This document shows positions 3,777-27,530 of a stretch of 64,000 bases of DNA, piece after piece. The stretch covers positions 1-64,000 of IMG/VR virus record IMGVR_UViG_3300046011_006646, one strand, 5' to 3'. Position 1 is the first letter of the stretch. Each line of letters opens with the position of its first letter. Under the pieces are notes generated by a model, which was given only the letters and a program-made list of their open reading frames with translations, had not been told where the DNA came from and made no database searches. The stretch comes from a virus. The position numbers and the translations under genes are program-made.

Positions 3777-6746
3777 ATGGCTTACCAAAATATTAATCAA
3801 TATGTCTATCAAAAAAATAGAATTGGTCTAGAATATGATAGTATGGATATGTCACTAGCCTCTGACGAAAGAGACTATAGTGAAGAAGTTGTATTCTCGC
3901 CTTTTATAATTGCTGAAACATACGGTAAAAAACTACCAATAAATATTGATATTGATAATCCATTAACAGTACAACCGTTAAATCTTAGTTATAAAAATTA
4001 TAATCAAAATAATATTTTTGTTTCTCAAAATTATTATAACCCAAATGATGAATTATTAAATTGTTTAACAGCTGATACTGTTTGTGATATTGGTTTAACT
4101 GGTATCGATAATGGTTTAGTAAATAAAATGACTGGTGAAACATTAAATTTTACTGAAGGTATTTTTGAAGATTCTGTAAAGTTTAATAGAATGTACTACG
4201 ATAGAAGAATGAAAATGATACAAGTAACCGGATATACCGGAACTTATAGTCGTTTTTCTGGATTTACAAAACAAACATTATATGAAGTTGTAAGTAAAAA
4301 TCATCCACAATTTGGAAAATATCATGAACTATATGGTGGGTTTTACCAAGGGTTTTATAAACTATTTGGGTATGACTATGAAATTTTACCAGAAAGAGTT
4401 ACAAAAGGTTGGTCTGTTGAAATGGTTTTAAAACCAAGGTTATCAAATGAGTTTAGTCCTGGACCAAATGAAACAACTTTAAACTTATTATATCCTCAAA
4501 ATAAAAATACGTTTTTTTATATGGGGACAAGAGCTGAAAATAAATTTTATCATCACGCAGATGGTAGTCCAAAATGTTTTACAGGTTACACAAGAGTTAC
4601 AACACCACTTGCAAATTGTTTACAAACTTGTGCTTGTTGTAATAAAGCTATAACAAATAGTAGATGTATATTTGTTTACCCACCAAGGTCAAAAAATAAT
4701 CAACACGACCCACACGCAAATTATGGTTGTGATAAATGTAATGGTGTTAATAGTGTTAAAATAAGTTGTGGTTGCGGTTGTAATGAATCACCTTGTGATA
4801 CTTGCGGTTGGGAATGTCAAACACACCAATGTGAAACAATATTCTACCCAACACCAACACCAACACCAACACCAAGTCCAACACCGACTTGTCAAGATGT
4901 AACACCTATTTGTACACCTAGTTGTGCAACTTGTAATGATTGTGTTGATTGTGTTGATTGTGGAACAACTGGTTATACATCAATAGAAGATACTTGTGAG
5001 AAAGATCCGTTATTTGATTTAATGTCAAATAATATTTCATTTAAATTATGTGGTGACCCAAAAAACCCATCAATTGGTGTTAAAGTTTTAAGATTTACCG
5101 GTGGATGTGAAACAACAGGAACTTGTGTTACCGGACAAACCTATATGACCGGATATACAATTCAAGAATATTGTTCACCACCAATATACCCAAGATGTGA
5201 AAAAGAAAATCCTTCTTGGTTAAATTTGGAACATTGGTTTCAAGTCGATGTTGTTTGGAGAAGGTATACAAATTATGATTTTTGTGATTTAAAATATTTT
5301 GGTGGACTTGCGGATATAACAGAAATTAAATATTTAGATTCTTTAGCAAATAATACCGTCAATTTAATTAAGCCACCTTTAACTCATACAAATGAATTTG
5401 GAGAAACAATTGAAATTGTTAATTTAAATAAAAAGTGGTTAGATGAGAAAAAGGATAGACTTGGCAGATTACGAATTTATGTTAATGGAAAACCAATATA
5501 TACTTTAGAAAATTTTGAAGAGGTTATTCCAAGAGCACTAAATACAGATAAAGAAAGACAATTAGCGGTACCATTTAATATTTCTTGGGGTGGAGGAACA
5601 CAAGGTCTTCACGAAAATTTAACATTTTCATCTTGTACCGGTTTAACCTCAAATTATATCCAAGACCCTGAATGTTTTCCAACATCAGTTTTAAGTGGGA
5701 CAACATTATCTGGGTTAACAACAAATATATTATTAGAAAAAGAATTTGGTGGAACGTTTGAAGGTGGTATTTCACAATTTAGAATGTATGTTGAACCTTT
5801 AACTGGTGATGAAATTAAACACAACTTTTTATTGTTAAAAGATAAATTTGCAATGTTTGACCCAGATTGTCCAGATTGTGGTGATGATTTCTGTGAGGTT
5901 GATGATTTTACTTATGTTATTAATGATGTAACAACAACCACAACAACAATACCGGTTACAACAACCACAACAACATTTAATCCATATCTTTTAATAACGC
6001 AAGATTTTGAACCAATTATAACTCAAGATAACGATAATATTATTTGGTATTGGCCAACACCAATGGTTGGTGGATTTAGTCCTGATAGTATTTTATTTGG
6101 TAGAACGTATATTCAAGATAACAGAGATCAAAATTATTTAATTCAAAATCATTTTAATCAAAAATTAAATTCAAAAACATTAACACAAAGATATTGGGAC
6201 GACAATGGATGGTGGGGTGACCAAGGATATTTACCACATTGTGTTGGTTATGCTTGGGCTCATTGGTTAGAAGATGGTCCAGTTGAACAGTCTGGTATTC
6301 CACCAATTATAAAACCAATAGACATTTATAAAAATGCACAAAAACTTGACGAATGGTACGGTGAAAATTATGATGGAACTTCTGTAAGGGGTGGTGTTAA
6401 ATTTTTACAACAACAAAAGAAAGTAAAATCATATTATTGGACATATGATTTAAACACACTTATAAATACTGTTTTAAATGTAGGACCAGTTGTTGTTGGT
6501 ACAAACTGGTATTATGGAATGTTTTATCCGGATAAAAATGGTTTAATTAAAGTTAGGGGTGCTTTAGCTGGTGGACATGCTTATATAATTAATGGTATTG
6601 ATACCAAAACAAAACAGTTTAGAATAAAAAATAGTTGGGGTAAAAGTTGGGGAAAACAAGGTCGCGCATTTATTTCATTTACTGATATGACAAGATTAAT
6701 TAGAGAACAAGGTGAAATTTGTTTAGCAACAGAAATAAAATCATAA
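3777..6746 (+). CDS. Adhesin-like structural protein with C-terminal papain-like (C1) peptidase
   Basis: 989 aa. Residues ~140-260 and ~480-680 have the look of a LamG/concanavalin-like beta sandwich (VEMVLKPR; ISWGGG). A Cys-rich stretch with many CxxC pairs (~275-390) encloses a Thr-Pro linker (~355-365). A Thr-rich linker (two runs of T around TIPVT) leads to a papain-type peptidase at ~760-989. Cys822 lies in PHCVGYAWA, His934 in GGHAYIINGID and Asn952 in IKNSWGKSWG, the order and spacing expected of family C1A, so the triad is intact. There is no signal peptide; it opens the fibre region after a TATTTAT motif. Likely an exposed virion protein that cuts a surface protein or matures a neighbour. 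The target is unknown. Confidence 0.8.
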   Translation: MAYQNINQYVYQKNRIGLEYDSMDMSLASDERDYSEEVVFSPFIIAETYGKKLPINIDIDNPLTVQPLNLSYKNYNQNNIFVSQNYYNPNDELLNCLTADTVCDIGLTGIDNGLVNKMTGETLNFTEGIFEDSVKFNRMYYDRRMKMIQVTGYTGTYSRFSGFTKQTLYEVVSKNHPQFGKYHELYGGFYQGFYKLFGYDYEILPERVTKGWSVEMVLKPRLSNEFSPGPNETTLNLLYPQNKNTFFYMGTRAENKFYHHADGSPKCFTGYTRVTTPLANCLQTCACCNKAITNSRCIFVYPPRSKNNQHDPHANYGCDKCNGVNSVKISCGCGCNESPCDTCGWECQTHQCETIFYPTPTPTPTPSPTPTCQDVTPICTPSCATCNDCVDCVDCGTTGYTSIEDTCEKDPLFDLMSNNISFKLCGDPKNPSIGVKVLRFTGGCETTGTCVTGQTYMTGYTIQEYCSPPIYPRCEKENPSWLNLEHWFQVDVVWRRYTNYDFCDLKYFGGLADITEIKYLDSLANNTVNLIKPPLTHTNEFGETIEIVNLNKKWLDEKKDRLGRLRIYVNGKPIYTLENFEEVIPRALNTDKERQLAVPFNISWGGGTQGLHENLTFSSCTGLTSNYIQDPECFPTSVLSGTTLSGLTTNILLEKEFGGTFEGGISQFRMYVEPLTGDEIKHNFLLLKDKFAMFDPDCPDCGDDFCEVDDFTYVINDVTTTTTTIPVTTTTTTFNPYLLITQDFEPIITQDNDNIIWYWPTPMVGGFSPDSILFGRTYIQDNRDQNYLIQNHFNQKLNSKTLTQRYWDDNGWWGDQGYLPHCVGYAWAHWLEDGPVEQSGIPPIIKPIDIYKNAQKLDEWYGENYDGTSVRGGVKFLQQQKKVKSYYWTYDLNTLINTVLNVGPVVVGTNWYYGMFYPDKNGLIKVRGALAGGHAYIINGIDTKTKQFRIKNSWGKSWGKQGRAFISFTDMTRLIREQGEICLATEIKS
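4848..4888 (+). repeat. CCAACA hexamer microsatellite encoding Pro-Thr repeats
   Basis: Tandem CCAACA-type units code for alternating Thr and Pro in the Cys-rich region of the papain-fusion protein. In-frame hexamers can change length by slippage without breaking the frame. Confidence 0.8.
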
Positions 6747-6777: not shown

Positions 6778-9700
6778 ATGGCAGATAAAAGAATAACCGA
6801 CTTACCTTTAATATTATCTGGTGATATATCAACACAAGATGTATTACCAATAGTAGATGTCAATCTAGACATTACAAATAAAATTGAGGTAGATCAATTA
6901 AAATCATATATATTAACAGGTGTTAATGATTATTATGTTACTGGTGGTACCTATTCTAATGGAACAATAACATTAGGGAGACAAAATGGTTCTTTATCAA
7001 TTAGCGGTTTATACACTGGATCAACAGATGTTTTTGTAACTGGTGGTACCTATGATAACACAACTGGAACATTAACTTTAAAAGATAATAACGGAACGTC
7101 ATTTGGTGTAACTGGATTTACAACTGGTGGTACTGGGACTTCTTTATATGAAGTTGGTTCTGGAACTGACTCAACACAAAGGGTTGGTGTTAATAATGTT
7201 GCAATCGGTAATTGTTCTGCTGTTTTAGCTGGATCCGGAAACACTGTAATATCAGAATTTTCTTTTATTGGTGGAGGTTATAATAATACTGCTGGTTTTA
7301 GTGGTGGTGTTAATTTTGTTTATAATGAAACATTTACAGGTAATATACCTTCATCAGGATTTTACGGTTCAATTCCACCATCATCAACACTTTCCGGTCT
7401 TGGTTCTGGTTCAACTTTTTCATTTTATTTTTCAACTCAAACAACTTTAAGTAATGTTTATGTTGACAATCAAGGTAGTGGATATGTTAGTGGTGATACA
7501 TTAACATTTAACGGTTCAAATTTTGGTGGTGTAACACCTGCCGATAATGTTACAGTTCAAATCAACACATTAGGTGGTTCAAACATCGTTATTGGTGGTG
7601 GTCAAGGAAATACTGCAAATAGAGACTCATCAACAATTAGTGGTGGTTATATAAATAAAAGTAACGCAAACTGCTCAACAATCGGTGGTGGTTGTCGTAA
7701 CATTATTTCAAATGATTCTTGTTACTCAACAATTAGTGGTGGTAGAAGAAATACCGGATACGGTTGTTACGGAGTAATTAGTGGTGGTCGTTGTAATGAA
7801 ACTGGTGCTTATGGTACAATAACTGGAACATTTAATCAAGTGTATACCGGTGGTACTTTAAATGGAACTTTTTCTGGTGGTTATAACCCAACATCAACGA
7901 CATCTGGTTATGGATTTGATGCTTCTTTTGGTTTTGTTTTTAATTTTGGTACTTTATCTAGTGTTAATATTCTTGGTGGTGGTAATCGATATATTGGAAA
8001 TGATACTTTATTTTTTAATGGTAATATATTTCCTGGTGGAACAACTGGTATTGATGATGTAACATTTCAAGTTAGTACATCAATAAATAACTATGCAACA
8101 GTAGCTGGTGGATGTTGTAATACTGCATCTGGTGAATACTCAACAATTAGTGGTGGGTATGAAAATACAGTATCCGGTGATTATTCAACTATTGGTGGGG
8201 GTTCTTGTAACACAATTAATACTAATTCGTGCTATTCAACTATTGGTGGTGGTGATGATAATACTATCCTTCAAGGTGATGTTGCAACAATCAGTGGTGG
8301 TGAAAATAATACGATAAGTGGTGCTTATTCATTTATTGGTGGTGGTTATAATAATATAATAACAAGTTCTGATGCAACAATTGGTGGTGGTTGTAATAAC
8401 ACTGCAAGTGGTTACAAATCATTTATTGGTGGTGGAGAAAATAACGTTTCTGGACGAAATAATTTTGTTAGTGGAATAAATAGTTCTGTATATACTGGTG
8501 GTACTTTAAATAATACTTACGGTGGTATCTCACCAACATCAACATCAAGTGGTACTGGATCTGGGGTATTATTTAGTTTTGATTTTGTTCTTGGTGTATT
8601 ACAAACCATCCAAATACAAAACGGAGGTTCTGGTTATTCTAATGGTGAAACACTATATTTTAACGGTGGATTATTTGGTGGTGGTTCATCTCCTTTAGAT
8701 GATGTTTGGTTAAACATCCAAACAGAAAATAGCACACATACAACCGTAAGTGGCGGCTATTGTAACACATCAAGTGGGGATTACTCAACCGTAAGTGGTG
8801 GATATAGAAACACATCAAGTTGTTATAGTTCAACAGTAAGTGGAGGTATTAATAACAAATCAAGTGGTAATTCTTCAACCGTAGGAGGTGGTCTTGAAAA
8901 TACATCAAGTTGTTGTTATTCAACAGTAAGTGGGGGACGTAGAAATACATCAAGTGGTTATCATTCAACCGTAAGTGGTGGATACCGTAATACATCAAGT
9001 GGTCAATATTCAACCGTAAGTGGCGGACAATTTAACACATCAAGTGGTAATTATTCATTTGTTGGTGGTGGACAATGTAACGCGTCAAACTCTATTAACT
9101 CAACCGTAAGTGGTGGATTTTGTAATACAACAAGTGGAACTTACTCAACAATAGGTGGAGGTAATAATAATAAGTCTAGTGGTGGTTATTCAACACTAAG
9201 TGGTGGTCAAAATAATGTTGCCGGTGGTACACATTCATTTATTGGTAGTGGTTTTGGTAACGTTTCAGGTGTTAATGGATTTGTTACTGGTGTTACAGGT
9301 TTTGTATATACTGGAGGAACATTTAATAGTACATTCACCGGTGTTAGTCCAACTTCAACAAGTAGTGGATTAGGATCCAATGCGTTTTTTAACTTTAGTT
9401 TCCTTGGTGGTGTATTACAAAGTGTTACAGTACAATCAGCAGGATCTGATTATGTAAACGGAGATATACTATATTTTAATGCCGCTTCATTTTTTAGTAC
9501 ATCACCTCTTAATGATGTTTGGATAACAATATCAAGTGCTAGTAATTCATTTACAACAGTAGTTGGTGGTAGTCAAAACACATCAAGTGGATATCTATCA
9601 ATTGTTGGTGCTGGTTATCAAAATACATCAAGTGGTTGTTATTCATTTATTGGTGGTGGATGGTGTAACACAACGGTAGGTGATTGCTCAATGATACTTG

Positions 9701-14365: not shown

Positions 14366-15106
14366 ATGTTTGTAACAGTATGTAATAAAGAATACCTCAT
14401 AGGATTTGAGGTAATGTTAAAATCTTTAATAGATAATAATCCAAGAGTTGTTACTGATAATTTACCATTTGTAATTATTACAAACGATTTAAACCCTGAA
14501 GATTTAGTCACCTCAAGAACAATTTATAATAATATACATATAAAAAGATTTGACGAATCAAAATATTCACAAATAGAGGAATTAAAAAAACAACAAATGG
14601 CATTTGGTGATTATACCAAATATGAAATTTTTTCTTTGACCGAATTTAAAAAAATTATATTTTTAGACTCCGATACAATAATATTAGGAAACATTGATTA
14701 CCTTATTGATTTTAAAGAACCATTTGGTTGTGTGAGAGAATTATTTATTGATCAATATAACACCGGTGTTATGGTAATCGAAAATAAATATTTAAATCCA
14801 AAAATTACAGAAGATTTAATCAATCTAACAAACATTTATGGTATTACAGAACATTTAGATCAGGACATAATAAATAATTATTTTATTGATGTTATCACGC
14901 CAATTCCATTGGAATACAACTATCTTAAAATATATTCAAAACAAATTTTTCAAAACACCGGACTTCCGGAGTATATTAAAATAATTCATTATGTTGTTAA
15001 AAAACCTTGGCAACAAAAACCATTGGTAATATTAGAAGAAGGAACACTATGGACCGAAAGATATTGGTTTGAGTATTATTCAAAAGTACTAAAGTTAAAA
15101 ATATAA
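14366..15106 (+). CDS. Glycosyltransferase family 8-like (glycogenin-type)
   Basis: 246 aa, GT-A fold. The metal- and nucleotide-sugar-binding DxD is D101-S-D103 in IIFLDSDTIILGNID. Further GT8 hallmarks are the first strand MFVTVCNKEYLIGFEVMLKS, the acceptor-side YNTGVMVIENK, HLDQDIIN, and the C-terminal HYVVKKPWQ with the His-x-Lys-Pro-Trp element. It would transfer a sugar, retaining its configuration, from a UDP-sugar to a glycan or protein. First gene of a six-gene run whose neighbours overlap or are a few bases apart. Acceptor unknown; the adjacent Ser/Thr-rich fibres are the favoured inference. Confidence 0.82.
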   Translation: MFVTVCNKEYLIGFEVMLKSLIDNNPRVVTDNLPFVIITNDLNPEDLVTSRTIYNNIHIKRFDESKYSQIEELKKQQMAFGDYTKYEIFSLTEFKKIIFLDSDTIILGNIDYLIDFKEPFGCVRELFIDQYNTGVMVIENKYLNPKITEDLINLTNIYGITEHLDQDIINNYFIDVITPIPLEYNYLKIYSKQIFQNTGLPEYIKIIHYVVKKPWQQKPLVILEEGTLWTERYWFEYYSKVLKLKI

Positions 15107-16014
15107 TGGTTAAAAGACATTACGGACAACACGAGCTATTGGAGTATGTTGAATTAGATAAAGACGCTCAAACATTAGAAGGAAAAGTAATTTTAATGCA
15201 CTTTGATTCTTTTTGTCTTGGCGATACAATTTGTTTTTCCTCTTTTATTGACGCTTTTCTTGATTATCACAAACCAAAAAAAGTAATTATCTCAACATTT
15301 TTTATACACTTATTCAAATCAACGGATGAAAGATATGAATTTATTAACGCAAATCAAAAATTAAAATTAACTGTTGATAAATTAATTGATGTTGGTTACG
15401 ATAAAAATAGTTTAGAAGATACAAAAGGTGGTATGATGTGGGCAACAAAAAGAACAATGATGTTACCACAAGAAACAAAACCTAGAAAATGTCCGGTTAT
15501 TCCATATGAAAGAAAAATAATCCCAAATAAAATAACAATTGCACCAGAGTCATTAAAAAAAATTGCTCAGTGGAACCATTTTGGAAATTACGGTTGGCAA
15601 TCATTGGTAAATGAAATTGTAAATTCTGGATTTGTGGTTTCAAATGTTTCATACGAAAATACAATGAATTTACAAAATGTAACTGGTTTTCACGGTCACG
15701 ATGATATTAGGGTTGCATTAAATGAAATTTTATCATCACGAGTATTTGTGGGATTATCTTCTGGACTTGCTTGGCTTGCTTGGGCTTACGGTGTTCCGGT
15801 TGTTATGATTTCTGGCTTTACAAAAGAACATAATGAATTTAATTGTTATAGAGTTACAAATAAACTTTCTTGTAATGGTTGTTTTAATTTATTTCAAAAT
15901 ATACAATCAACTTGTCCTTTATTTTTGGGTACCGATAGAGAAAATGAGTGTCATAAATCAATTACACCACAAATGGTTATTGACAAAATAAACGAAGCTC
16001 TTAAATTTAATTAA
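15106..16014 (+). CDS. TibC/BAHT-like autotransporter O-heptosyltransferase (GT9-related)
   Basis: 302 aa. The C-terminal half carries the signature of the bacterial autotransporter heptosyltransferase family (TibC, AAH). It has GWQSLVNEI, VSYENT, the donor-site block RVFVGLSSGLAWLAWAYGVP followed by VVMISGFTKEHNEFN, a four-cysteine metal finger (C256, C259, C270, C282) and SITPQMVIDKI. In known members the finger binds iron and the enzyme adds heptose to Ser in strand-loop-strand repeats of adhesins such as TibA and AIDA-I. It is shorter at the N-terminus than TibC. The start overlaps the GT8 stop by one base. Its location beside adhesin-type phage fibres suggests they are the acceptors; the actual donor sugar is not known. 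Confidence 0.8.
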   Translation: MVKRHYGQHELLEYVELDKDAQTLEGKVILMHFDSFCLGDTICFSSFIDAFLDYHKPKKVIISTFFIHLFKSTDERYEFINANQKLKLTVDKLIDVGYDKNSLEDTKGGMMWATKRTMMLPQETKPRKCPVIPYERKIIPNKITIAPESLKKIAQWNHFGNYGWQSLVNEIVNSGFVVSNVSYENTMNLQNVTGFHGHDDIRVALNEILSSRVFVGLSSGLAWLAWAYGVPVVMISGFTKEHNEFNCYRVTNKLSCNGCFNLFQNIQSTCPLFLGTDRENECHKSITPQMVIDKINEALKFN

Positions 16015-16019
16015 AAATT

Positions 16020-16904
16020 ATGGAAAAAAAATATAGTGTATTTCACATAGAGGGTGGTCTTGGTAAACATGTTTTAGCAACAGCAGTTGCAAGATGTATT
16101 AAAAATAATCATCCGGATAGAGAACTAATTGTTGTTTGTGCTTATCCAGAAATTTATCTTAATTTAGATTTTGTTAATCGTGTGTATAGATTAGGTAACA
16201 CACCTTATTTTTATGACGATTATATAAATGAAAAAGATAGTTTAATTTTCAAACACGAACCGTACTTTACTGAAGATCATATTCATAAAAAATTATCATT
16301 AATCCAAAACTGGTGTAAATTATTTAACCTTGAGTATAGTAATGAAAAACCAGAACTTGTTTTTAATTTAAGACAACAACAAATTGGTATTAATAAATGG
16401 CAAAGACAAAGACCAATTATGGTTATTCAAACAAACGGTGGACCATTAAATGACCAACCGTATCCGTATTCTTGGACAAGAGATATACCTATGGACACTG
16501 CTCAACAAATTGTAAATTCATTTAAAGACTATTATCATATAATTCAAATTTGTAGACACGAATCAAATGCTCTTCAAGGTGTTGAGGTAATTAAAGAACC
16601 GATGTCAAATATGGAATTATTTTCACTTCTTTTATTTTCACAAAAAAGATTGTTAATTGATTCTTGTTTACAACATGCCGCAGCAGCGCTTGGTTTACAA
16701 TCAACAGTTCTTTGGGTTGGTACATCACCAAAAGTATTTGGTTATAATTTACATAATAATATTGTAGCACAACTACCAAACACAGTCAAACTTCCGGATA
16801 GTTATTTATTTGACTATAACTTTAATGGAATGGTTCACGAATGTCCGTTATTTGACACAAACATCTTTAACATAAACGAAATAATAGAATCACTAAAAAA
16901 TTAA
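16020..16904 (+). CDS. GT9-like glycosyltransferase (GT-B fold)
   Basis: 294 aa. The N-terminus FHIEGGLGKHVLATAVARCI is the glycine-rich first loop of heptosyltransferase-like GT-B enzymes, and the region LLIDSCLQHAAAALGLQSTVLWVGTSP (about residues 215-240) matches the GT9 donor-binding segment (D-S-x-x-x-H-A-A-A). It lacks the four-cysteine finger of the preceding gene. Five bases separate it from the upstream stop, so both enzymes are probably made together. Likely role: a second transfer step on the same glycan. Donor and acceptor unknown. Confidence 0.72.
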   Translation: MEKKYSVFHIEGGLGKHVLATAVARCIKNNHPDRELIVVCAYPEIYLNLDFVNRVYRLGNTPYFYDDYINEKDSLIFKHEPYFTEDHIHKKLSLIQNWCKLFNLEYSNEKPELVFNLRQQQIGINKWQRQRPIMVIQTNGGPLNDQPYPYSWTRDIPMDTAQQIVNSFKDYYHIIQICRHESNALQGVEVIKEPMSNMELFSLLLFSQKRLLIDSCLQHAAAALGLQSTVLWVGTSPKVFGYNLHNNIVAQLPNTVKLPDSYLFDYNFNGMVHECPLFDTNIFNINEIIESLKN

Positions 16905-16905
16905 A

Positions 16906-17724
16906 ATGGTACAAAAAATTTTCTTTCAAAGCTCACTACCTAGAGCAGGGTCTACATTACTACAAAATGTAATGGGTCAAAATCCAGATTTTTACGTTAC
17001 ACCAACATCAGGTGTATTAGAACTTGTATATGCCGCAAGAGCAAATTACACTTCATCACCAGAATTTAAAGCACAAGATACTCAACTAATGAGAGAAGGG
17101 TTTTTAAATTTTTGTAATCAAGGTGTTCAAGGTTTTTTTAATGCTGTAACGGATAAACCCTATGTTTTAGATAAAAGTAGGGGTTGGGGTGTTCATTACG
17201 GATTTTTAAATTCATTTTATCCTAACCCAAAAGTAATTTGTATGGTTAGAGATTTAAGAGGAATTTTTGCATCTATGGAAAAAAACTTTAGAAAAAATCA
17301 ACATATGGATTCTGGAATTGTAAATCACGCACAAATGCAAGGAACAACAACAGAAAAAAGAATTGATATTTGGGCACAGTCACAACCGGTAGGATTAGCA
17401 ATAGAAAGGTTACATCAAATTTTTAAAGAAGGTAACAATCAAAAAATGTTATTTGTTAAGTTTGAGGATTTTTCATCAAACCCAAAAAAAGAAATGGAAC
17501 GTATCTATCAATACTTGGAATTACCTTATTATGAACATGATTTTAATAATGTTCAACAAATTACACAAGAAGATGACAGTGTGTATGGAATTTATGGTGA
17601 CCATAAAATAAAAAGTAAAATAGAACCATTAAAACCAGATTATAAAGAAGTTTTGGGTGTTAACGCATCTAACTGGGTTAAATCTAATTATCAATGGTTT
17701 TATGATCAATTTGGATATTTTTGA
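16906..17724 (+). CDS. PAPS-dependent sulfotransferase
   Basis: 272 aa. The 5'-phosphosulfate loop is SLPRAGSTLLQNVM (residues ~10-23, R13-x-G-S-T). The 3'-phosphate site is CMVRDLRGIFASM (R115 and S123). FEDF and the following helix fit the family fold. It would move a sulfuryl group from PAPS to a hydroxyl, most likely on a carbohydrate. One base separates it from the GT9-like gene and three from APS kinase, which makes PAPS, so a dedicated sulfation step is well supported by context. There is no membrane anchor, so it acts in the host cytoplasm before virion release. The acceptor is not shown by the sequence. Confidence 0.85.
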   Translation: MVQKIFFQSSLPRAGSTLLQNVMGQNPDFYVTPTSGVLELVYAARANYTSSPEFKAQDTQLMREGFLNFCNQGVQGFFNAVTDKPYVLDKSRGWGVHYGFLNSFYPNPKVICMVRDLRGIFASMEKNFRKNQHMDSGIVNHAQMQGTTTEKRIDIWAQSQPVGLAIERLHQIFKEGNNQKMLFVKFEDFSSNPKKEMERIYQYLELPYYEHDFNNVQQITQEDDSVYGIYGDHKIKSKIEPLKPDYKEVLGVNASNWVKSNYQWFYDQFGYF

Positions 17725-17727
17725 TTT

Positions 17728-18183
17728 ATGAAAGAGAAAAAAATATATTGGTTTACCGGACAACCTGGTGCTGGAAAAACGGTGTTATCTTTAAGATTAA
17801 AAAAGTATTTAGAACAAGAATATGGACAAGAAGTATTCCATATTGATGGTGATGAGTTAAGAGTTTTATTTAAAAACATAAACTACGGTAGAGAAGGTCG
17901 TGAGGAAAATATAAAAAGAGCTCAAGATATTGCAAAATTTATTCACTCACAAGGTTATGATGTAATTGTTAGTTTAGTTGCACCATATAAAGAAATGAGG
18001 GAAAGTTTTAAGTATGATTTAAAAAATTTACTAGTTGAGTTTTATGTTCACACAACAGACATTAGAGGTAGAGAACATTTTCACACGGATGAATATGAAG
18101 GTCCTACAGAAAATTTTGTAGATATTGATACAACAAATGTTGATCCACAAATATCATTAAACGAAATAATCAAACACATATGA
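17728..18183 (+). CDS. cysC: Adenylylsulfate (APS) kinase
   Basis: 151 aa, slightly shorter than usual (~175-200). Walker A is GQPGAGKT (residues 11-18); HIDGDELR and the NYGREGREENIKRAQDIAKF block are typical of CysC, as is VSLVAPYKEMRE. The residues around the end of the usual Lys-Asp-x-Lys-Gly-Leu segment are missing or replaced (HTDEYEGPTENFVDI), as in other short members. It catalyses ATP + APS to ADP + PAPS, the donor for the sulfotransferase immediately upstream. APS must come from the host or another gene, since no CysD/CysN is in the window. Its TGA overlaps the next ATG by 4 bases. Confidence 0.85.
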   Translation: MKEKKIYWFTGQPGAGKTVLSLRLKKYLEQEYGQEVFHIDGDELRVLFKNINYGREGREENIKRAQDIAKFIHSQGYDVIVSLVAPYKEMRESFKYDLKNLLVEFYVHTTDIRGREHFHTDEYEGPTENFVDIDTTNVDPQISLNEIIKHI

Positions 18184-18632
18184 GTTGGGAAAAGAAAAAT
18201 TATGGGGGGGATCCAACAACAAATGAAAGTAAAAAATATGCAATTTTTATTGGCCGTTATCAACCACCACATTTTGGGCATTTAGAGTTATTTGAACAAA
18301 AACTAAAACAAGGAGTTCCAATTTTAATTATGGTTAGGGATATTGAACCAGATGAAAAAAATCCTTTTACAACAGAGCAAACAGTGTTTTTATTGGAAAA
18401 ATATTTTTCAAATAAAAAATTAGATGTTAAGGTTATGGTTATTCCTGATATTGAGTCGGTAAATTTTGGTCGTGGTGTTGGTTATGAGGTTAATGAATTT
18501 ATACCACCAAAAGACATTGGTGGGATTTCAGCAACTGGAATTAGAAATTCCATTAAAAATAAAGATGATTATTGGAAAAAAATGATAGACGAATCAATCC
18601 AAAACGATATTTTTAATTTTTTGACTAATTAA
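18180..18632 (+). CDS. HxGH nucleotidyltransferase (NMNAT/cytidylyltransferase-like)
   Basis: 150 aa. The N-terminal FIGRYQPPHFGHLELFEQ contains the T/HxGH-type nucleotide site, and GGISATGIRNSI is the C-terminal ISxTxIR element of NMN adenylyltransferase-like enzymes. The fold activates a phosphate-containing substrate by adding AMP or CMP. It overlaps the APS kinase gene by 4 bases, which points to the same pathway: making an activated sugar or a step near sulfate activation. A role in NAD synthesis is the main alternative. It is not a classical ATP sulfurylase. The last 39 bases overlap the end of the convergent endonuclease gene. Confidence 0.72.
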   Translation: MSWEKKNYGGDPTTNESKKYAIFIGRYQPPHFGHLELFEQKLKQGVPILIMVRDIEPDEKNPFTTEQTVFLLEKYFSNKKLDVKVMVIPDIESVNFGRGVGYEVNEFIPPKDIGGISATGIRNSIKNKDDYWKKMIDESIQNDIFNFLTN

Positions 18633-20041: not shown

Positions 20042-20461
20042 ATGAGTCAAAGTATTACAATAAATAGTGTTTTATATGATGGTGAGTTAGCAAGTATATT
20101 ATTCAAACCAGACAATTCTGACGATGTAATTAATCTTGGTCTTGTTGAGTTACCTTTTACATTTTATCCTAATTTATTAAGTCCACCAAGAGAAGTATAT
20201 GGTAGTTATACAATTTTGGTTCAAGGTTCAAGTTGTTCAAAAACATTAAATGTTCCAAGACCAACACCTACACCTACACCAACAGTTACTCCTACAAGGA
20301 CCCAAACACCAACACCCACACCAACTAATACACCAACACCATCTTTTGATCCGTGTAAAGTACCAACACCAACACCAACTAATACACCAACACCAACTAA
20401 TACACCAACAGTAACACCAACACCAACAGTTTCTTGTACAAATCCATGTGGTTGTTTTTAA
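20042..20461 (+). CDS. Mucin-like Thr/Pro-repeat structural protein
   Basis: 139 aa. Residues ~1-72 form a small beta domain ([20 protein letters not shown]). Residues ~74-128 are almost entirely Thr-Pro repeats with Asn and Val, and the end is SCTNPCGCF. No signal peptide. The extended Thr/Pro tail resembles the linkers in the adjacent 1193-aa adhesin and in the papain-fusion and sheath proteins. Such sequences are typical substrates of protein O-glycosyltransferases. Likely a minor virion or fibre-linker protein. Confidence 0.68.
20261..20429 (+). repeat. Long Thr-Pro-coding hexamer/nonamer microsatellite
   Basis: Repeated CCAACA and ACACCA-type units with interspersed AAT (Asn) codons. 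The array is in frame and likely length-variable. Confidence 0.8.
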
Positions 20462-20502
20462 CAACAACTTTATAATAAAGACAAATGTTTTATAATTAAT
20501 TA

Positions 20503-23500
20503 ATGCAACAAATAGAAATTACAGGAGTTACCGGAACAGGACCTTATCAAGTCGAAGTTTGTGATATAACAAACACAACTTGTGTTGTTGTAACTGGATC
20601 AACAATTATTCCGCCAACATATACTTTTGATGTTCCACCACCATTTGTTGGTACAAACTCTTTATTAATCAAAATTACAGATTCATTAGGTTGTGAGGTA
20701 TTCCAATACTACTCTTGTCCACCAACTCCCACACCAACACCAACTCCGACATTAACTCCAACACCTACACCAACATATCTTTGTTATTGTATTACAGCAA
20801 TTAACACAACAAATAATAATGGATATTTTAATTACATAGATTGTAATGGAAATTTACAATCATCTGTATTTGTTGCAAGTGGAACAACATATTATACTTG
20901 TGGGATTCACCCATCAAGTCAAATTAATGTAAAAACAACTGTTGGTGGGTTTTGTGATTCAAATCAGTCTTGTCCGACACCATCTTGTACTCCAACACCA
21001 ACAAATACACCAACACCAACACCAACACAAAAAGGTAGGTTTAAAGCGTTATATAGAACAACAAATACCTCATCTGGTTCATCTGGAGCAAGTCAATTAA
21101 GATTACCATTAGAATCAACTGGTAATTATAACTTTACGGTTTATTGGGGTGACGCGTCAAGTGATGTAATTACAGTATGGAATGATCCATTAACAACACA
21201 TACCTATGCAGCGCCTGGTGATTATCTTGTTGAGATTGATGGAACAATAGAAGGTTTTAGATTTGCAAATACCGGTGATAGGAAAAAGATATTAAGTGTT
21301 TCAGATTGGGGTATTTTAAAATTTGGAAACAACGGTGATTACTTTTATGGTTGCTCAAATTTGACATTAAATTCAGTTAATGATACTCCAGATGTTTCAT
21401 TAACAACAAATATGTCTCAAGCATTTAGGGAATGTTCATCACTTACATCATTTAATAATTTAAATTCTTGGAATATGTCCCAAGTAACTGATACATCATA
21501 TATGTTTGCAATATGCCCAACATTTAATCAAAACATTGGTTCTTGGGATGTATCGTCTGTTACAAATATGCAATCAATGTTTTATAATTGTTCTTTATTT
21601 AATCAAGATATTACAAACTGGAATGTATCAAATGTTGATGATATGTCGTATATGTTTTGTGAAGCGGCATTATTTGATCAACCAATAACCGGTTGGTCGG
21701 TATCTGCTGTAACAAATATGGCTGGAATGTTTTCTGATGCAATATCATTTGACCAAAACATCGGAACTTGGGATGTTTCAAATGTTAGTTTTATGAACAA
21801 TATGTTTGAGGGTGTTGTATTATCAACACAAAATTATGATTCAATATTATGTGGTTGGTCTAACTTACCAACACTACAATCAAACGTTGTCTTTGATGGT
21901 GGTAACTCTCAATATACAACTTCAGCAGTAACTTGCATTGTAACATTGTCGACATCACCATATGATTGGACAATACTAAATGGTGGTCAATCAAGATTTG
22001 AATCAACTTGGGATACAACATTAACCTCATTAGGTTCTTCATTAGGAAATCAAGTTATGTTACCTTTAGAATTAACAGGGATATACAACTTTTTTGTTGA
22101 TTGGGGTGATGGAAATTCGGATAATATTACGGTATGGAACGATCCGGCAACAACACATACATATGTGACATCAGGAATTTACACAATAAAAATATATGGG
22201 CAAATAGAAGGCTGGAGATTTAATAACACCGGTGATAGATTAAAACTGTTAAGCATTCAAAGCTGGGGGTCTGATTTCAGATTAGGTAATAATGGTTCAT
22301 ATTTTAATGGTTGTACTAATTTAGACTTAAGTGGTGTTTCAGATATTTTAGATTTACAAGGAACAACTACTTTATTTAGGACATTTAGAAACTGTGGTTC
22401 TTTAACAACTGTTTCTAATATGAATTTATGGGACACATCAAATGTCACAAATATGTCAGAAATGTTTATTAATTCATCATTTAATCAACCAATTGGAACT
22501 TGGGACACATCTTCTGTTACAGATATGAGTAGTACATTTTTTAATGCCGCATCATTTAACCAACCAATTGGAACTTGGGACACATCTTCTGTTACAACAA
22601 TGTTTCAAATGTTTGCTTTTGCAACATTATTTAACCAACCAATTGGAACTTGGGACACATCTTTTGTTCTAACTATGGGTGGTATGTTTGCCAACGCAAC
22701 ATCGTTTAATCAAAATCTTGGATCTTGGAACATAATATCTGTTACAGATATGAATGGTATGTTGAACAGTTGTGGAATGAGTTCAACAAACTACGATTCA
22801 ACATTATGTGGTTGGTCATTACTACCAACATTACAAACTGGGGTTTTATTAGGCGCTTTAGGTTTATTTTATTCACCAGCCGGTCTTACTTGTAGAAATA
22901 TATTAACCGGAACATATTCTTGGGTAATAACCGGTGACAACCCTTTAGTAGTAACACCGTTTGTCTCAAATTGGGACACAACTCAAACAAGTGGTGGTTC
23001 ATCATTAGCAAACCAAGTACAGTTACCATTAGATTTTAGTGGTACATATAACTTTACCGTAGATTGGGGTGATGGGTCACCAATTGATACAATAACGGTA
23101 TGGAATGATCCATTAACTTTACATACTTATGGTGTGTCTGGAACATATACAATAACAATTACAGGACAAATAGAAGGATTTAGATTTAATAATACTGGTG
23201 ATAGAGATAAATTATTAAATATTACAAGTTGGGGTCCTAATTTTAGATTAGGTAATAATAATAGTTATTTTTATGGTTGTACAAATTTAGATTTAAGTTT
23301 TGTTTCAGATATTTTGGATTTAACAGGTACAATATCAATGACTAATACTTTTAGAGATTGTACATCATTAACAACAGTAAATAATATGAACTTGTGGGAC
23401 ACATCTTCAATTGTAAGTATGTCTAGTATGTTTCGTAACGCAACATCATTTAATCAACCAATTGGAACCTGGGATACCTCTTCCGTTACAACTATGGGTA

Positions 23501-24084
23501 GTATGTTTAATAATGCAACATTATTTAACCAACCAATTGGTACTTGGATTACATCTTTAGTTACAAATATGACTCTTATGTTTGCTGGCGCAACATCATT
23601 TAACCAACCAATTGGAACCTGGGATGTATCTTCGGTTATAACTATAAATGCTATGTTTGATACTGCAATATCATTTAACCAACCAATTGGAACCTGGGAT
23701 GTGTCAAATATTACAGATATGAGCGGTATGTTTCAAAGTGCTACATCATTTAACCAACCAATTGGAACTTGGAATACATCGTTAGTTACAAATATGATTA
23801 GTATGTTTAATAATGCAACATTATTTAACCAACCAATTGGTACTTGGGACGTTTCATTAGTGACAAGTATGAATAATATGTTAGATAATTGTGGGTTAAG
23901 TCAAGCAAATTATGATAACTTACTTATAGGTTGGTCAATATTACCATCACTACAACTTGGTGTTACACTTGGTGCTTTAAATATACAATATACACAACCA
24001 CCAAGTGCTGTGGCTTTAGCTAGAAATACAGTTTTAATTGGAACTTATGGATGGACAATTGTTGGTGATATTCCGGTACCATAA
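20503..24084 (+). CDS. Large adhesin with PKD-like and BspA/DUF285 repeats in three blocks
   Basis: 1193 aa. An N-terminal beta domain is followed by two Thr-Pro linkers (~75-90 and ~165-180). Then come three homologous blocks of ~310-370 residues. Each starts with a PKD-like unit ([32 protein letters not shown]) and continues with ~25-residue BspA-like leucine-rich repeats of the type [20 protein letters not shown] (DUF285). BspA repeats mediate surface adhesion in Bacteroidota and other host-associated bacteria. Here the protein is probably a virion adhesin or fibre tip. The third block has the most repeats. Signs of tandem duplication are strong at both protein and DNA level. Confidence 0.8.
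20719..20775 (+). repeat. Thr-Pro-coding microsatellite, first linker of the BspA-like adhesin
   Basis: ACACCA/ACTCCA units in frame, coding for (T-P)n. Confidence 0.75.
20990..21029 (+). repeat. Thr-Pro-coding microsatellite, second linker of the BspA-like adhesin
   Basis: CCAACA units with one AAT codon, in frame, just before the first PKD-like block. Confidence 0.75.
21043..24070 (+). repeat. Three tandem ~1-kb blocks (PKD-like plus BspA repeats)
   Basis: Blocks begin near 21043, 22000 and 22965. Each contains WNDP-THTY and FRFNNTGDR-type landmarks, followed by [11 protein letters not shown]-type units that are nearly identical in DNA between blocks 2 and 3. Confidence 0.75.
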
Positions 24085-24133
24085 CCATTTATTTATTTAT
24101 TTCATTTTTTATTTTTATCTTAAAAAATATTAG

Positions 24134-25378
24134 ATGAATACCATATTTGTTCAAATCGCATCATTTAGAGATCCCCAACTTAATCCGACAATTAAAGATA
24201 TGTTGGAAAATGCCAAATACCCAGAGAATTTAAGAATAGGAATTTGTAATCAATATAATCCGGAAGACGAATTTAATTTAGATAAATTCAGAGATGATGA
24301 TAGATTTAGAATTGATGATGTTTTAGATAAAGATTCACAAGGTGTTTGTTGGGCTCGCCACAAAGTACAACAAATGTATAGTGGAGAAACTTACACATTA
24401 CAGATTGATTCTCATATGCGTTTTGAAAAAGATTGGGACAAGACTCTAATTGAAATGTTAAAGGGGTTACAAGATAAAGGATATAAGAAACCATTACTTA
24501 CAGGTTATGTATCTTCTTTTGATCCGGAAAATGACCCAAAAGGAAGAGTAACGGAACCTTGGAGAATGGCTTTTGATAGATTTACACCGGAAGGTTGTGT
24601 TTTCTTTTTACCTGAAACAATACCAGGATGGAAAGAATTAAAAGAACCAATTACATCAAGATTTTATTCAGCACATTTTTGTTTTACATTAGGTGAATTT
24701 TCAGTTGAGGTTCAACACGATCCAAATTATTATTTTCACGGAGAAGAAATATCAATTGCTGTTAGGGCATACACTTACGGATATGATTTGTTTCACCCAC
24801 ATAAAGTTGTTATCTGGCACGAATATACAAGAAAGGGAAGAACAAAACATTGGGATGTTGATTCGGAGTGGTATAAGAAAAATGACGCATCACATAAAAG
24901 AAATAGAGAACTATTGGGAATTGATGGTTTAGTATTTTCTGGTGATAGTTCATTATATTTTGGTACCGAAAGAACAATTAGAGATTATGAAAAATATTCC
25001 GGAATTCTTTTTGAGAAAAGAGCTGTACAACAATATACAATAGATAAAAAATACTCACCAAATCCATACGAATATAAAACAGAAGAAGAATGGAAGGATA
25101 GTTTCCTTTCAATATTTAAACATTGTATTGACCTTTCATTTGATATGGTTAAAGAAACAGATTATGATTTTTGGGTTGTTGCATTTCATAATGGTAAAGA
25201 TGAAACATTATATAGAAGAGATGCCGACCAAAATGAGATTGCAATGATGATGAAAGATCCAGATAGATATTGTAAAATATGGAGAGAGTTTAATACAACG
25301 GAAAGACCAAAGTATTGGGTGGTTTGGCCACATAGTACATCAAAAGGTTGGTGTGATAGAATAACTGGGAATTTATGA
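24134..25378 (+). CDS. GT60-like polypeptide/glycan GlcNAc transferase
   Basis: 414 aa. The N-terminal 110 residues match the GlcNAc (GT60, Skp1-type) family: IFVQIASFRDPQLNPTIKDM, then RIGICNQYN, VCWARHKVQQMYSGE, and TLQIDSHMRF with the D-x-H metal site at residues 92-94. Known eukaryotic members add GlcNAc to hydroxyproline or Thr of proteins. The C-terminal ~110 residues (SPNPYEYKTEEEWKDSFLS onward) are a separate unknown domain. Its TGA overlaps the next ATG. The gene follows three proteins with Thr-Pro linkers, so these are attractive acceptors. Family call good; donor and acceptor inferred. Confidence 0.8.
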   Translation: MNTIFVQIASFRDPQLNPTIKDMLENAKYPENLRIGICNQYNPEDEFNLDKFRDDDRFRIDDVLDKDSQGVCWARHKVQQMYSGETYTLQIDSHMRFEKDWDKTLIEMLKGLQDKGYKKPLLTGYVSSFDPENDPKGRVTEPWRMAFDRFTPEGCVFFLPETIPGWKELKEPITSRFYSAHFCFTLGEFSVEVQHDPNYYFHGEEISIAVRAYTYGYDLFHPHKVVIWHEYTRKGRTKHWDVDSEWYKKNDASHKRNRELLGIDGLVFSGDSSLYFGTERTIRDYEKYSGILFEKRAVQQYTIDKKYSPNPYEYKTEEEWKDSFLSIFKHCIDLSFDMVKETDYDFWVVAFHNGKDETLYRRDADQNEIAMMMKDPDRYCKIWREFNTTERPKYWVVWPHSTSKGWCDRITGNL

Positions 25379-27039
25379 TTACATTAGTAACTGGTCTTTG
25401 GGATATTGGTAGAGGTGAATTATCTGATGGGTGGTCAAGATCATTTGATCACTATTTAGATAAATTTTCACAACTATTAAAGGTTGATAACAATATGATA
25501 ATTTTTGGTGATCAGAAATTAAAAGAGTTTGTTTTTAAATATAGAACAGAGGAAAATACTCAATTTATATTAAAACCAGTTGATTGGTTTAAAAACAACG
25601 AGTTTTATGAATTAATCCAAAACATTAGAAAAAATCCATCTTGGTATAATCAAGTAGGTTGGTTAAAAGAGTCAACACAAGCAAGACTTGAGATGTATAA
25701 TCCACTTGTTATGTCAAAGATGTTTTTATTACACGACGCAAAACTTTTAGATAAGTTTGATTCAAAATTATTATACTGGATTGATGCCGGACTAACAAAC
25801 ACGGTACATCCTGGATATTTTACACACGACAAAGTTTTAGATAAGATACCAAAATTATTTAAAAAATTCACATTTGTTTGTTTTCCATATAAAGCAGAAA
25901 CAGAAGTTCACGGATTTAAATATGATAAGATGTGTGAGTTATCCGGAAAAAATACAGAAATAGTTGCTCGTGGTGGATTTTTTGGTGGAGATAAAGATTC
26001 AATATCACAGATGAATGTTCTTTATTATAACTTGATGATGGAAACATTAAAGTCTGGTTTAATGGGAACAGAAGAATCTTTATTTACAATTCTTCTATAT
26101 CAAAATCCATCACTTATTGATTATTGTGAAATAGAATCAAATGGATTACTATATAAATTTTTTGAGGATGTTAAAAATGATAAGGTTGTATTAAAAAATA
26201 AAGGAAAGAAAATTGTGACAAATTATAATGGTGACGTTGGTTTATATGTAATTACATTTAACTCACCAAAACAATTTGAAGTTTTAATAAAATCAATGTT
26301 GGATTATGATTCAAATTTTATTCATAAGACCAAAAAGTTTTTACTGGATAATTCAACCGATCTTTCAACAACTCCGAGGTATAGAGAACTATGTGAAAAT
26401 TACAATTTTCAACACATTAAAAAGAATAACATTGGTATAACCAGAGGTAGAGTTTTTGTTGCCGAACATTTTAACGAACAAGAAAATTTATCACATTATT
26501 TTTTCTTTGAGGATGATTTTGGTTTCTATTCCGGAAAAGATATTACCTGTAAAAACGGTTTTATAAGAAAAATTAATAATATATATGAAAAAACTTTAGA
26601 AATAATTAAAAAAGAAAATTTTGACTATTTAAAATTGAATTTTACCGAATTTTATGGTTCTCACAATAAACAATGGAGTTGGTATAATGTAAGTCAACAA
26701 TATAGAGAAAGTCACTGGCCAAACAACCCAAAGTTACCAAAACAAGGACTTGACCCAAATTCACCAAATCTTGAATTTAAACATATACAATCACATAAAG
26801 GATTGGCCTATGTTTCTGGTGAAATTTATTTATCCAACTGGCCAATATTAATGACAAAGGAAGGAAATTATAATTGTTATATTAAAACAAAATTCCAACA
26901 TCCATACGAACAGACTTTAATGTCAAATTGTTATCAAGAAATAATTAAAGGAAATATTAATCCAGGATTACTTCTTGCAACACCAACAGAACACAATCGT
27001 TTTGATTTTTATGAATCTTCATTAAGAAAAGAGTGTTAA
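25375..27039 (+). CDS. Two-domain glycosyltransferase: HtrL/YibB-like plus GT-A
   Basis: 554 aa. Residues ~1-275 resemble the HtrL/YibB family (ITLVTGLWDIGRGELSDGWS, YLDKFSQLLKVDNNMIIFGD, LLYWIDAGLTN with W-x-DAG, and MGTEESLFTILLY). Residues ~280-554 start a second, GT2-like domain (GLYVITFNSPKQFEVLIKSM) with an acidic EDDF in YFFFEDDFGFYSG as the probable metal site. Overlaps the GT60-like gene by 4 bases and is surely co-translated with it. Two catalytic domains in one chain suggest two successive sugar additions. Nothing identifies the sugars. Confidence 0.7.
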   Translation: MITLVTGLWDIGRGELSDGWSRSFDHYLDKFSQLLKVDNNMIIFGDQKLKEFVFKYRTEENTQFILKPVDWFKNNEFYELIQNIRKNPSWYNQVGWLKESTQARLEMYNPLVMSKMFLLHDAKLLDKFDSKLLYWIDAGLTNTVHPGYFTHDKVLDKIPKLFKKFTFVCFPYKAETEVHGFKYDKMCELSGKNTEIVARGGFFGGDKDSISQMNVLYYNLMMETLKSGLMGTEESLFTILLYQNPSLIDYCEIESNGLLYKFFEDVKNDKVVLKNKGKKIVTNYNGDVGLYVITFNSPKQFEVLIKSMLDYDSNFIHKTKKFLLDNSTDLSTTPRYRELCENYNFQHIKKNNIGITRGRVFVAEHFNEQENLSHYFFFEDDFGFYSGKDITCKNGFIRKINNIYEKTLEIIKKENFDYLKLNFTEFYGSHNKQWSWYNVSQQYRESHWPNNPKLPKQGLDPNSPNLEFKHIQSHKGLAYVSGEIYLSNWPILMTKEGNYNCYIKTKFQHPYEQTLMSNCYQEIIKGNINPGLLLATPTEHNRFDFYESSLRKEC

Positions 27040-27065: not shown

Positions 27066-27530
27066 ATGGAGTTCTTTATAAAGAAAAATGCGACACTTCC
27101 GGTTTTAAAAATTACAGTCGTAAAAGACGGACGAAGTGATTATAATAATTTTATGGATTTTATTGAGGAATCTTCCATTTTTTTCTCAATGATTGATACC
27201 GAAACCGGTATTCCGAAAATACTAACAAGACCAGCAGGATTTGTAAAAAAAGAATTTATGGACCTAAACACTCCGGTTGAGTACTATGTCTATTATCAAT
27301 TTACATCAAAAGATACAAGAAAAGTTGGAAGATTTGAGGGTCAATTTTTATTTAGAAATGATGATGGAGTTTTAATCCTTCCAATAAGAGATAAACTATT
27401 TATAAACATACAAGAAAGTTTCATCGCAGATGATCTTCCTTATGAGAGTTGTTATGTTTCAGAATTTCCTTGTTGTGTAAAAACACCAGTAATTCCAGTT
27501 ACAACAACCACAACAACATTACTATTTTAA
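27066..27530 (+). CDS. Small structural protein, BppU N-terminal-like, with Thr-rich tail
   Basis: 154 aa. Residues ~1-125 look like one immunoglobulin-like beta domain of the sort at the N-terminus of phage baseplate or fibre adaptors (ATLPVLKITVVKDGRS, then FFSMIDTETGIPKI and YYVYYQFTSKDTRKVGRFEG). The C-terminus ends VIPVTTTTTTLLF, nearly the same Thr-rich element as the linker before the papain domain of the 3777 protein. It starts the transcript leading into fibre 3. An adaptor linking fibres to the baseplate is a reasonable inference. Confidence 0.65.
   Translation: MEFFIKKNATLPVLKITVVKDGRSDYNNFMDFIEESSIFFSMIDTETGIPKILTRPAGFVKKEFMDLNTPVEYYVYYQFTSKDTRKVGRFEGQFLFRNDDGVLILPIRDKLFINIQESFIADDLPYESCYVSEFPCCVKTPVIPVTTTTTTLLF

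Follow-up and report, generated by a model that had tools for sequence, protein, structure and literature searches.

A phage GT60-family glycosyltransferase linked by gene order to Thr-Pro-rich proteins: a candidate system for mucin-type O-glycosylation of tail and adhesin linkers

Introduction

Dictyostelium Gnt1 is a polypeptide α-N-acetylglucosaminyltransferase (α-GlcNAc-transferase) of glycosyltransferase family GT60. A further enzyme of this family, TcOGNT-2 of Trypanosoma cruzi, adds α-GlcNAc to threonine, and the activity of the parasite has been assayed with the peptide KPP-T8-KPP and Mn2+ (PMC3769586). GT60 and family GT27, which comprises the polypeptide N-acetylgalactosaminyltransferases (GalNAc-transferases), have both replaced the DxD motif by DxH, cluster together and have O-glycosylation of polypeptide Ser/Thr in common (PMC7185993). 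Here, we describe a GT60-family gene in a stretch of 64,000 nucleotides (the window) taken from a linear virus record of 64,663 bases (IMG/VR record IMGVR_UViG_3300046011_006646); the window encodes a T4-type tail sheath, a baseplate protein and a DNA polymerase. We propose that the phage uses this gene for mucin-type O-glycosylation in the cytoplasm, directed at Thr-Pro and poly-Thr linkers of tail and adhesin proteins, a reading to which we assign a probability of about 0.72.

The phage enzyme has both the family and the DxH motif in common with the protist enzymes TcOGNT-2 and Dictyostelium Gnt2, and its candidate linkers resemble the protist acceptors, which are Thr-rich with proline nearby (KPPTTTTTTTTKPP; PMC3769586). 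Unlike the protist enzymes, it has no membrane anchor that is evident by eye, its acceptors would be linkers of tail and adhesin proteins, and α-GlcNAc is a putative sugar. Glycosylation of phage virion proteins is known in few cases. Mycobacteriophages likewise employ phage-encoded glycosyltransferases for virion proteins (Freeman 2023, cited in PMC12619734), but their glycans reside at the C-termini of capsid and tail-tube subunits, whereas GT60 in the window is accompanied by Thr-Pro and poly-Thr linkers. The autotransporter O-heptosyltransferases TibC/AAH also have a relative in the window (15106-16014), which is an enzyme separate from GT60 and, in comparison to TibC/AAH, is shorter and lacks the N-terminal part. 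In titles and beginnings of abstracts, with subscription journals mostly outside this coverage, no pairing of GT60 with Thr-Pro proteins is stated by the literature on phage and bacterial GT60 and phage mucin-type virion glycosylation, nor by that on VgrG, contractile injection systems, sulfotransferases, Thr-Pro repeats and jumbo-phage glycoproteins; likewise, no role is stated there for bacterial or phage GT60 proteins.

Results and Discussion

The GT60 enzyme

24134..25378, + strand: GT60-family (PF11397) glycosyltransferase, proposed initiating polypeptide O-glycosyltransferase (from profile, fold and invariant residues)

The motifs R-D-P, C-W-A-R and I-D-S-H-M-R-F, by which a preliminary description of the window had assigned this protein to GT60, are present in the translation, the first one as F-R-D-P. 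The assignment held in the profile search: PF11397 (GlcNAc), which we take to be CAZy family GT60, matched the protein with 228 bits in a Pfam scan (curated cut-off 21; E 2.6e-67), well over its cut-off, and had no match in 14 control genomes. The alignment consists of two stretches (profile positions 1-45 and 97-303 of 352), which we count together as a match to the whole domain, and ORF334 (ORF, open reading frame), a relative from the cultured phage XacN1, aligns to profile positions 1-350 in a single piece. The window protein also matches phrog_24687 'glycosyltransferase' over its full length (E 8.9e-161). Residues D92-S93-H94, i.e. the DxH motif, and the downstream H229, which would be the metal-binding histidine, are invariant in 47/47 aligned sequences.

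An AlphaFold2 model built from these 47 sequences (mean predicted local distance difference test score, pLDDT, 94) has a predicted GT-A fold near those of GT27. When the model was compared with solved structures using Foldseek, the first 28 of 50 matches listed were mucin-type polypeptide GalNAc-transferases. VIA likewise placed polypeptide GalNAc-transferases in the first 29 of 50 positions listed (Z 19.6-22.8 over ~270 residues at 11-14% identity), followed by the next match at Z 17.8; thus, GT27 provides the closest solved folds among those listed (Z up to 22.8). As judged from the model, this likeness is one of fold and not of family membership: the sequence family is GT60, and a ricin-type C-terminal lectin domain was not found in the Pfam scan, which at E <= 0.01 gave PF11397 alone. 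Searches of solved structures detected no relative by sequence and seven chance-level matches (E 0.23 or worse) by profile. Because of its profile, its fold and its invariant DxH/His residues, the protein is placed among the polypeptide Ser/Thr O-glycosyltransferases. We consider it quite probable that protein Ser/Thr is the substrate class, and give even odds to GlcNAc, chosen by analogy, as the transferred sugar.

Phage glycosyltransferases are often DNA-modifying (PMC12619734), and GT60 might instead act on hypermodified bases of the phage DNA, with the Thr-Pro genes as mere neighbors. As the record is linear and has 64.7 kb, base-modification genes, for which no search was made, could lie outside of it. 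However, the nearest folds are polypeptide transferases, and both the co-occurrence with Thr-Pro arrays, assessed with controls, and the location of bacterial relatives near VgrG, sheath and Thr-Pro proteins in several loci (see below) argue against DNA as substrate, which we regard as very improbable.

Candidate acceptor proteins

20042..20461, + strand: small protein, N-terminal domain followed by a Thr-Pro tail (16 TP); candidate acceptor
20261..20429, + strand: Thr-Pro array inside the preceding gene
20503..24084, + strand: protein with two Thr-Pro linkers (15 TP), then three PKD-like and DUF285 (BspA repeat) modules; candidate adhesin and acceptor
20719..20775, + strand: first Thr-Pro array of the preceding protein
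20975..21029, + strand: second Thr-Pro array of the same protein
27066..27530, + strand: protein with a poly-Thr C-terminal tail
3777..6746, + strand: protein with (TP)n, two T6 tracts and a C-terminal papain-like (C1) domain; candidate acceptor
45694..49059, + strand: tail sheath, long N-terminal part with Thr/Ser- and TP-rich linkers; candidate acceptor on the virion

The translations of the two genes just upstream of GT60 indeed contain TPTPTP-type arrays, at the positions that had been described. For the larger product (20503-24084) the designation as Thr-Pro protein fits in part: both linkers are there, but they are confined to the first ~180 residues, and the protein consists mostly of PKD-like and DUF285 modules. 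Similarly, the Thr-rich linkers reported elsewhere in the window were recovered in the 3777 protein and the sheath, while the 27066 protein has a poly-Thr C-tail (VTTTTTTLLF) without TP array. TPTPTP occurs four times in the 20503 protein, twice each in the 3777 and 20042 proteins and once in the sheath, counts that were reached in 0/2000 residue shuffles of each. The arrays are long, Thr/Ser/Pro-rich regions of low complexity and in this sense mucin-like; TP-rich proteins of relatives reach 1792 aa and 240 TP. Among homologues of the 27066 protein, 50/72 carry TP arrays or Thr/Ser runs of at least 5, as compared to 249/1715 for all ORFs in the loci.

By homology, the sheath is the sole candidate acceptor that is a virion protein. 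It is very large (1121 aa), and residues 820-1118 only make up the sheath core. The papain-like domain of the 3777 protein is homologous to the stand-alone XacN1 ORF382 (36% over 217 aa). BspA/DUF285 repeats were considered as cause of the TP arrays and rejected; the DUF285-carrying phages PAU, D3 and LR756500, which lack GT60, are without (TP)3.

Gene order in phage relatives

A scan of viral contigs provided 179 relatives of the window enzyme, of which 80 (68-91% identity) were used. ORFs were called as longest ORFs by a script rather than by a gene finder, and were rated TP-rich when they encoded at least 4 TP within 20 residues. Such an ORF is present in 79/81 close phage loci, the window included. 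In a non-redundant set of 27 representatives (90% identity), TP-positive genes occupy the position directly upstream of GT60 (-1) in 17/27 and position -2 in 12/25 cases, compared to 0/79 for positions +1 to +3. Length-weighted permutation within loci yielded a mean of 6.07 TP-positive genes at -1, and 17 were reached in 0/20,000 permutations. Hence, the link between GT60 and Thr-Pro arrays goes beyond local chance. A common homologous domain is present in 12 of the 17 TP-positive upstream proteins; the others form four groups, one with two members.

Co-occurrence across phage genomes and the cultured phage XacN1

Among 50,697 phage records, three contain a GT60 relative at E <= 1e-5, namely XacN1, RAS14 and CM1. 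When (TP)3 sites were counted as codon patterns, these genomes had 29, 19 and 19, respectively, while all of 20 GT60-negative genomes, most of them jumbo phages, had 0; the latter were hand-picked and not random (15 from polymerase matches and 5 others). We treat the three phages as one lineage, since RAS14 and CM1 are nearly alike and their polymerase is 68% identical to that of XacN1. Of 17 contigs found via the XacN1 enzyme, 13 contain (TP)3, including 6/6 over 70 kb, and the four without it have 20-40 kb. The reverse test gave a corresponding result: among the matches listed, GT60 was present in 15/47 viral contigs of at least 43 kb selected by (TP)4, but in 0/27 contigs selected by the backward-read pattern (Fisher p 4e-4; sets not length-matched, two contigs matching both patterns assigned solely to the 47).

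Virions of XacN1 contain 'at least two glycoproteins' according to proteomics, and phage glycosyltransferases were suggested as their makers (PMC5852040). XacN1 carries GT60 together with the partner enzyme described below, and its TP counts are 48 in ORF350, which adjoins an annotated structural protein, 52 in ORF372, which lies within the same gene block as the sheath, and 82 and 23 in the examined parts of ORF384 and ORF325, respectively.

These data also bear on the possibility of phylogenetic hitch-hiking, i.e. that one giant aquatic phage group possesses both GT60 and low-complexity TP linkers with no enzyme-substrate relation between them. The GT60-positive phages represent few lineages and their sequences are for this reason not independent, as is illustrated by the XacN1 and RAS14 polymerases; moreover, no GT60 was seen in 32/47 of the (TP)4 contigs among the matches listed, all of them fragments (L115, L153, L156, L201 and L213 are examples), which may have another O-glycosyltransferase or carry GT60 beyond the fragment. 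However, the core genes of XacN1 are only distantly similar to those of the window (sheath 32% over 207 aa, polymerase 25% over 211 aa), yet GT60, the partner and TP arrays occur in both, and the bacterial VgrG tails (see below) constitute a separate case. Taking both sides together, hitch-hiking appears improbable to us.

Bacterial GT60 relatives

Scanning one genome per species yielded 168 bacterial relatives, of which the best 80 were used. A TP-rich ORF is present in the examined flanks of 17/80 loci. Some of the loci are probably phage contigs in bins, e.g. L372 and L390, which are taken as such because of their phage-like TP proteins. In 11 Burkholderiales loci (L382, L386, L388, L391, L392, L394, L396, L398, L399, L405, L410), VgrG is encoded 2-4 genes from GT60 on the opposite strand, and 11/11 of these VgrGs end in Ser/Thr-Pro repeats, in comparison to 0/28 other VgrG-like proteins from the same 11 genomes (phmmer E of 1e-20 reached, at least 450 aa; L478 was dropped, as it is the GT60-neighboring gene of L396 again). 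The tail units differ, i.e. (TP)n, PPPTE, EEPPQT/EEPPET, EEPPPS, DETP, EPSTP, EQPEPSD and EEPAASD; the tails near GT60 are fast-changing, yet Ser/Thr and Pro are always included. For L368, L372, L390 and L404, VgrG matches at E 4e-13 to 1e-6 were regarded as low-complexity and dropped, and so was L405 for a J-like protein.

Five further loci (L397, L404, L411, L413, L418) encode a related large protein near GT60, plus a spike-like protein that weakly matches VgrG in all but L404; the one scanned, from L397, has Phage_base_V/GPD domains. The large proteins of L397 and L404 have a TP linker, which in L397 precedes a glycoside-hydrolase-like domain, and that of L411 weakly matches the baseplate-assembly model TIGR02243 (E 6e-5, below cut-off). 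In L400, the gene for a contractile sheath that has TP linkers lies three genes from GT60, and L362, L368, L381 and L408 encode small TP-rich proteins whose N-termini are twin-arginine-like by eye.

The bacterial loci are also where a role in surface glycans has to be weighed. The target of GT60 and its partner might be a surface glycan of the host or one encoded by the phage, such as lipopolysaccharide or capsule, for example to block superinfection, with the Thr-Pro linkers as inert spacers. Indeed, the examined flanks of 63/80 bacterial GT60 loci are free of TP ORFs, and the GT8 enzyme and the sulfotransferase encoded nearby in the window could act on free glycans. Against this, TP or Ser/Thr-Pro tails are associated with GT60 in phages and in the VgrG loci despite their differing units, and we judge a surface-glycan role unlikely, albeit somewhat less so than hitch-hiking.

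The partner glycosyltransferase

25375..27039, + strand: two-domain glycosyltransferase, N-terminal HtrL_YibB (PF09612), C-terminal GT-A-like; proposed extension enzyme

The start of the partner gene overlaps the GT60 stop. A homologue is present in 78/80 close and 16/19 distant phage loci (94/99), including XacN1 (ORF330) and RAS14. In three Myxococcales loci (L385:17-3649, L412:3652-6897, L414:2756-6019), GT60 and both partner domains form a single protein; the one from L385 gives a weak methyltransferase match in addition. The GT60 enzymes of XacN1 and the window are 48% identical over 455 aa, and for the partner the figure is 40% over 553 aa; because this is far better conservation than that of sheath and polymerase, a pair that is exchanged or strongly constrained is suggested. 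A search of solved structures with the partner profile found no relative. The model has a low predicted template modelling score (pTM 0.56), and its fold matches are the tandem GT-A enzymes LH3, chondroitin polymerase and LARGE1 with poor superposition of the whole chain, which is why we call the partner just a two-domain glycosyltransferase.

Proposed function

In the proposed O-glycosylation of linkers, GT60 would act in the cytoplasm of the infected cell, where threonines in the Thr-Pro and poly-Thr linkers of tail and adhesin proteins encoded by neighboring genes would receive a sugar; known GT60 enzymes suggest GlcNAc, with UDP-GlcNAc as donor, as the most likely one. The partner would extend this sugar. 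The products would be rod-like, hydrophilic and protease-resistant linkers, which could hold sheath decorations and adhesin domains off the particle. What we infer are the chemistry of the acceptors, the sugar, the order of the steps, the biological benefit and, for acceptors other than the sheath, the location on the virion. The mucin-type modification suggested in the preliminary description gains computational support from profile, fold, residues and a two-way genomic association with controls. The pairing of GT60 with its partner, the TibC-like protein O-heptosyltransferase encoded in the window and the virion glycoproteins reported for XacN1 speak for it as well.

In addition to the fragments without GT60, the bacterial loci without TP ORF and the small number of phage lineages mentioned above, several observations weigh against this proposal. 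Of the 81 phage loci, two lack a TP ORF and two more (L060, L061) have their sole TP-rich ORF on the opposite strand; among the 27 representatives, the -1 gene is without an array in 10. The arrays of XacN1 are not adjacent to GT60, and L098, although 68% identical, has no (TP)3 within its 39.7 kb. In bacteria, adjacency at +/-1 is weakly enriched (6/140 vs 6/626, p 0.012; GT ORF called in 74/80 loci).

A broader reading, which we hold to be about as likely true as false, is that phages and bacteria have, in GT60 and the YibB-type glycosyltransferase, a dedicated mucin-type O-glycosylation system that serves contractile tail machines as well as mucin-like proteins of the surface. It would cover the tails of giant phages and VgrG spikes, along with baseplates and sheaths similar in appearance to the ones of extracellular injection systems, and also proteins with twin-arginine-like signals. 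If true, bacteria and phages would make 'mucins' by the same enzyme superfamily as animals, with sulfation by a sulfotransferase and an adenylyl-sulfate (APS) kinase as an option. Gene order links a phage enzyme that is akin in fold to the animal mucin initiators with mucin-like linkers and VgrG tails, and as this link names a class of acceptors, the function becomes testable in the cultured phages XacN1, RAS14 and CM1 and in environmental Burkholderiales. Such a modification could be the reason why the long, flexible adhesin linkers of giant phages stay intact, and the enzymes are potential compact tools for cytoplasmic O-glycosylation in E. coli.

Further glycosylation and sulfation genes

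14366..15106, + strand: glycosyltransferase family 8 (GT8)
15106..16014, + strand: TibC/AAH-like protein O-heptosyltransferase with C-terminal Cys motif; second protein O-glycosyltransferase by homology
16020..16904, + strand: heptosyltransferase-like by eye only; phrog_8954 (unknown function), no family match
16906..17724, + strand: sulfotransferase (PF13469, E 1.5e-21)
17728..18183, + strand: APS kinase, which would make the sulfate donor 3'-phosphoadenylyl sulfate (PAPS)
18180..18632, + strand: nucleotidyltransferase (CTP_transf_like)

A comparison of the GT8 enzyme with the partner glycosyltransferase found no similarity. The 15106 protein matches TIGR04414 with 123.7 bits (E 8.6e-36), below the equivalog cut-off of 200, and the TibC structure chain 4rap with E 1.1e-16; judged by these matches it is a relative of TibC/AAH and is not called an equivalog. 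At a guess, large beta-roll-like proteins encoded at 6778, 9962 and 30009 are possible acceptors of this enzyme. The sulfotransferase gene adjoins that of the APS kinase, and the phage might thus encode both the sulfation of a glycan or protein and the supply of the donor. Homologues of the sulfotransferase are found near GT60 in 11/80 close loci, as are those of the APS kinase, and sulfation would therefore be an optional layer.

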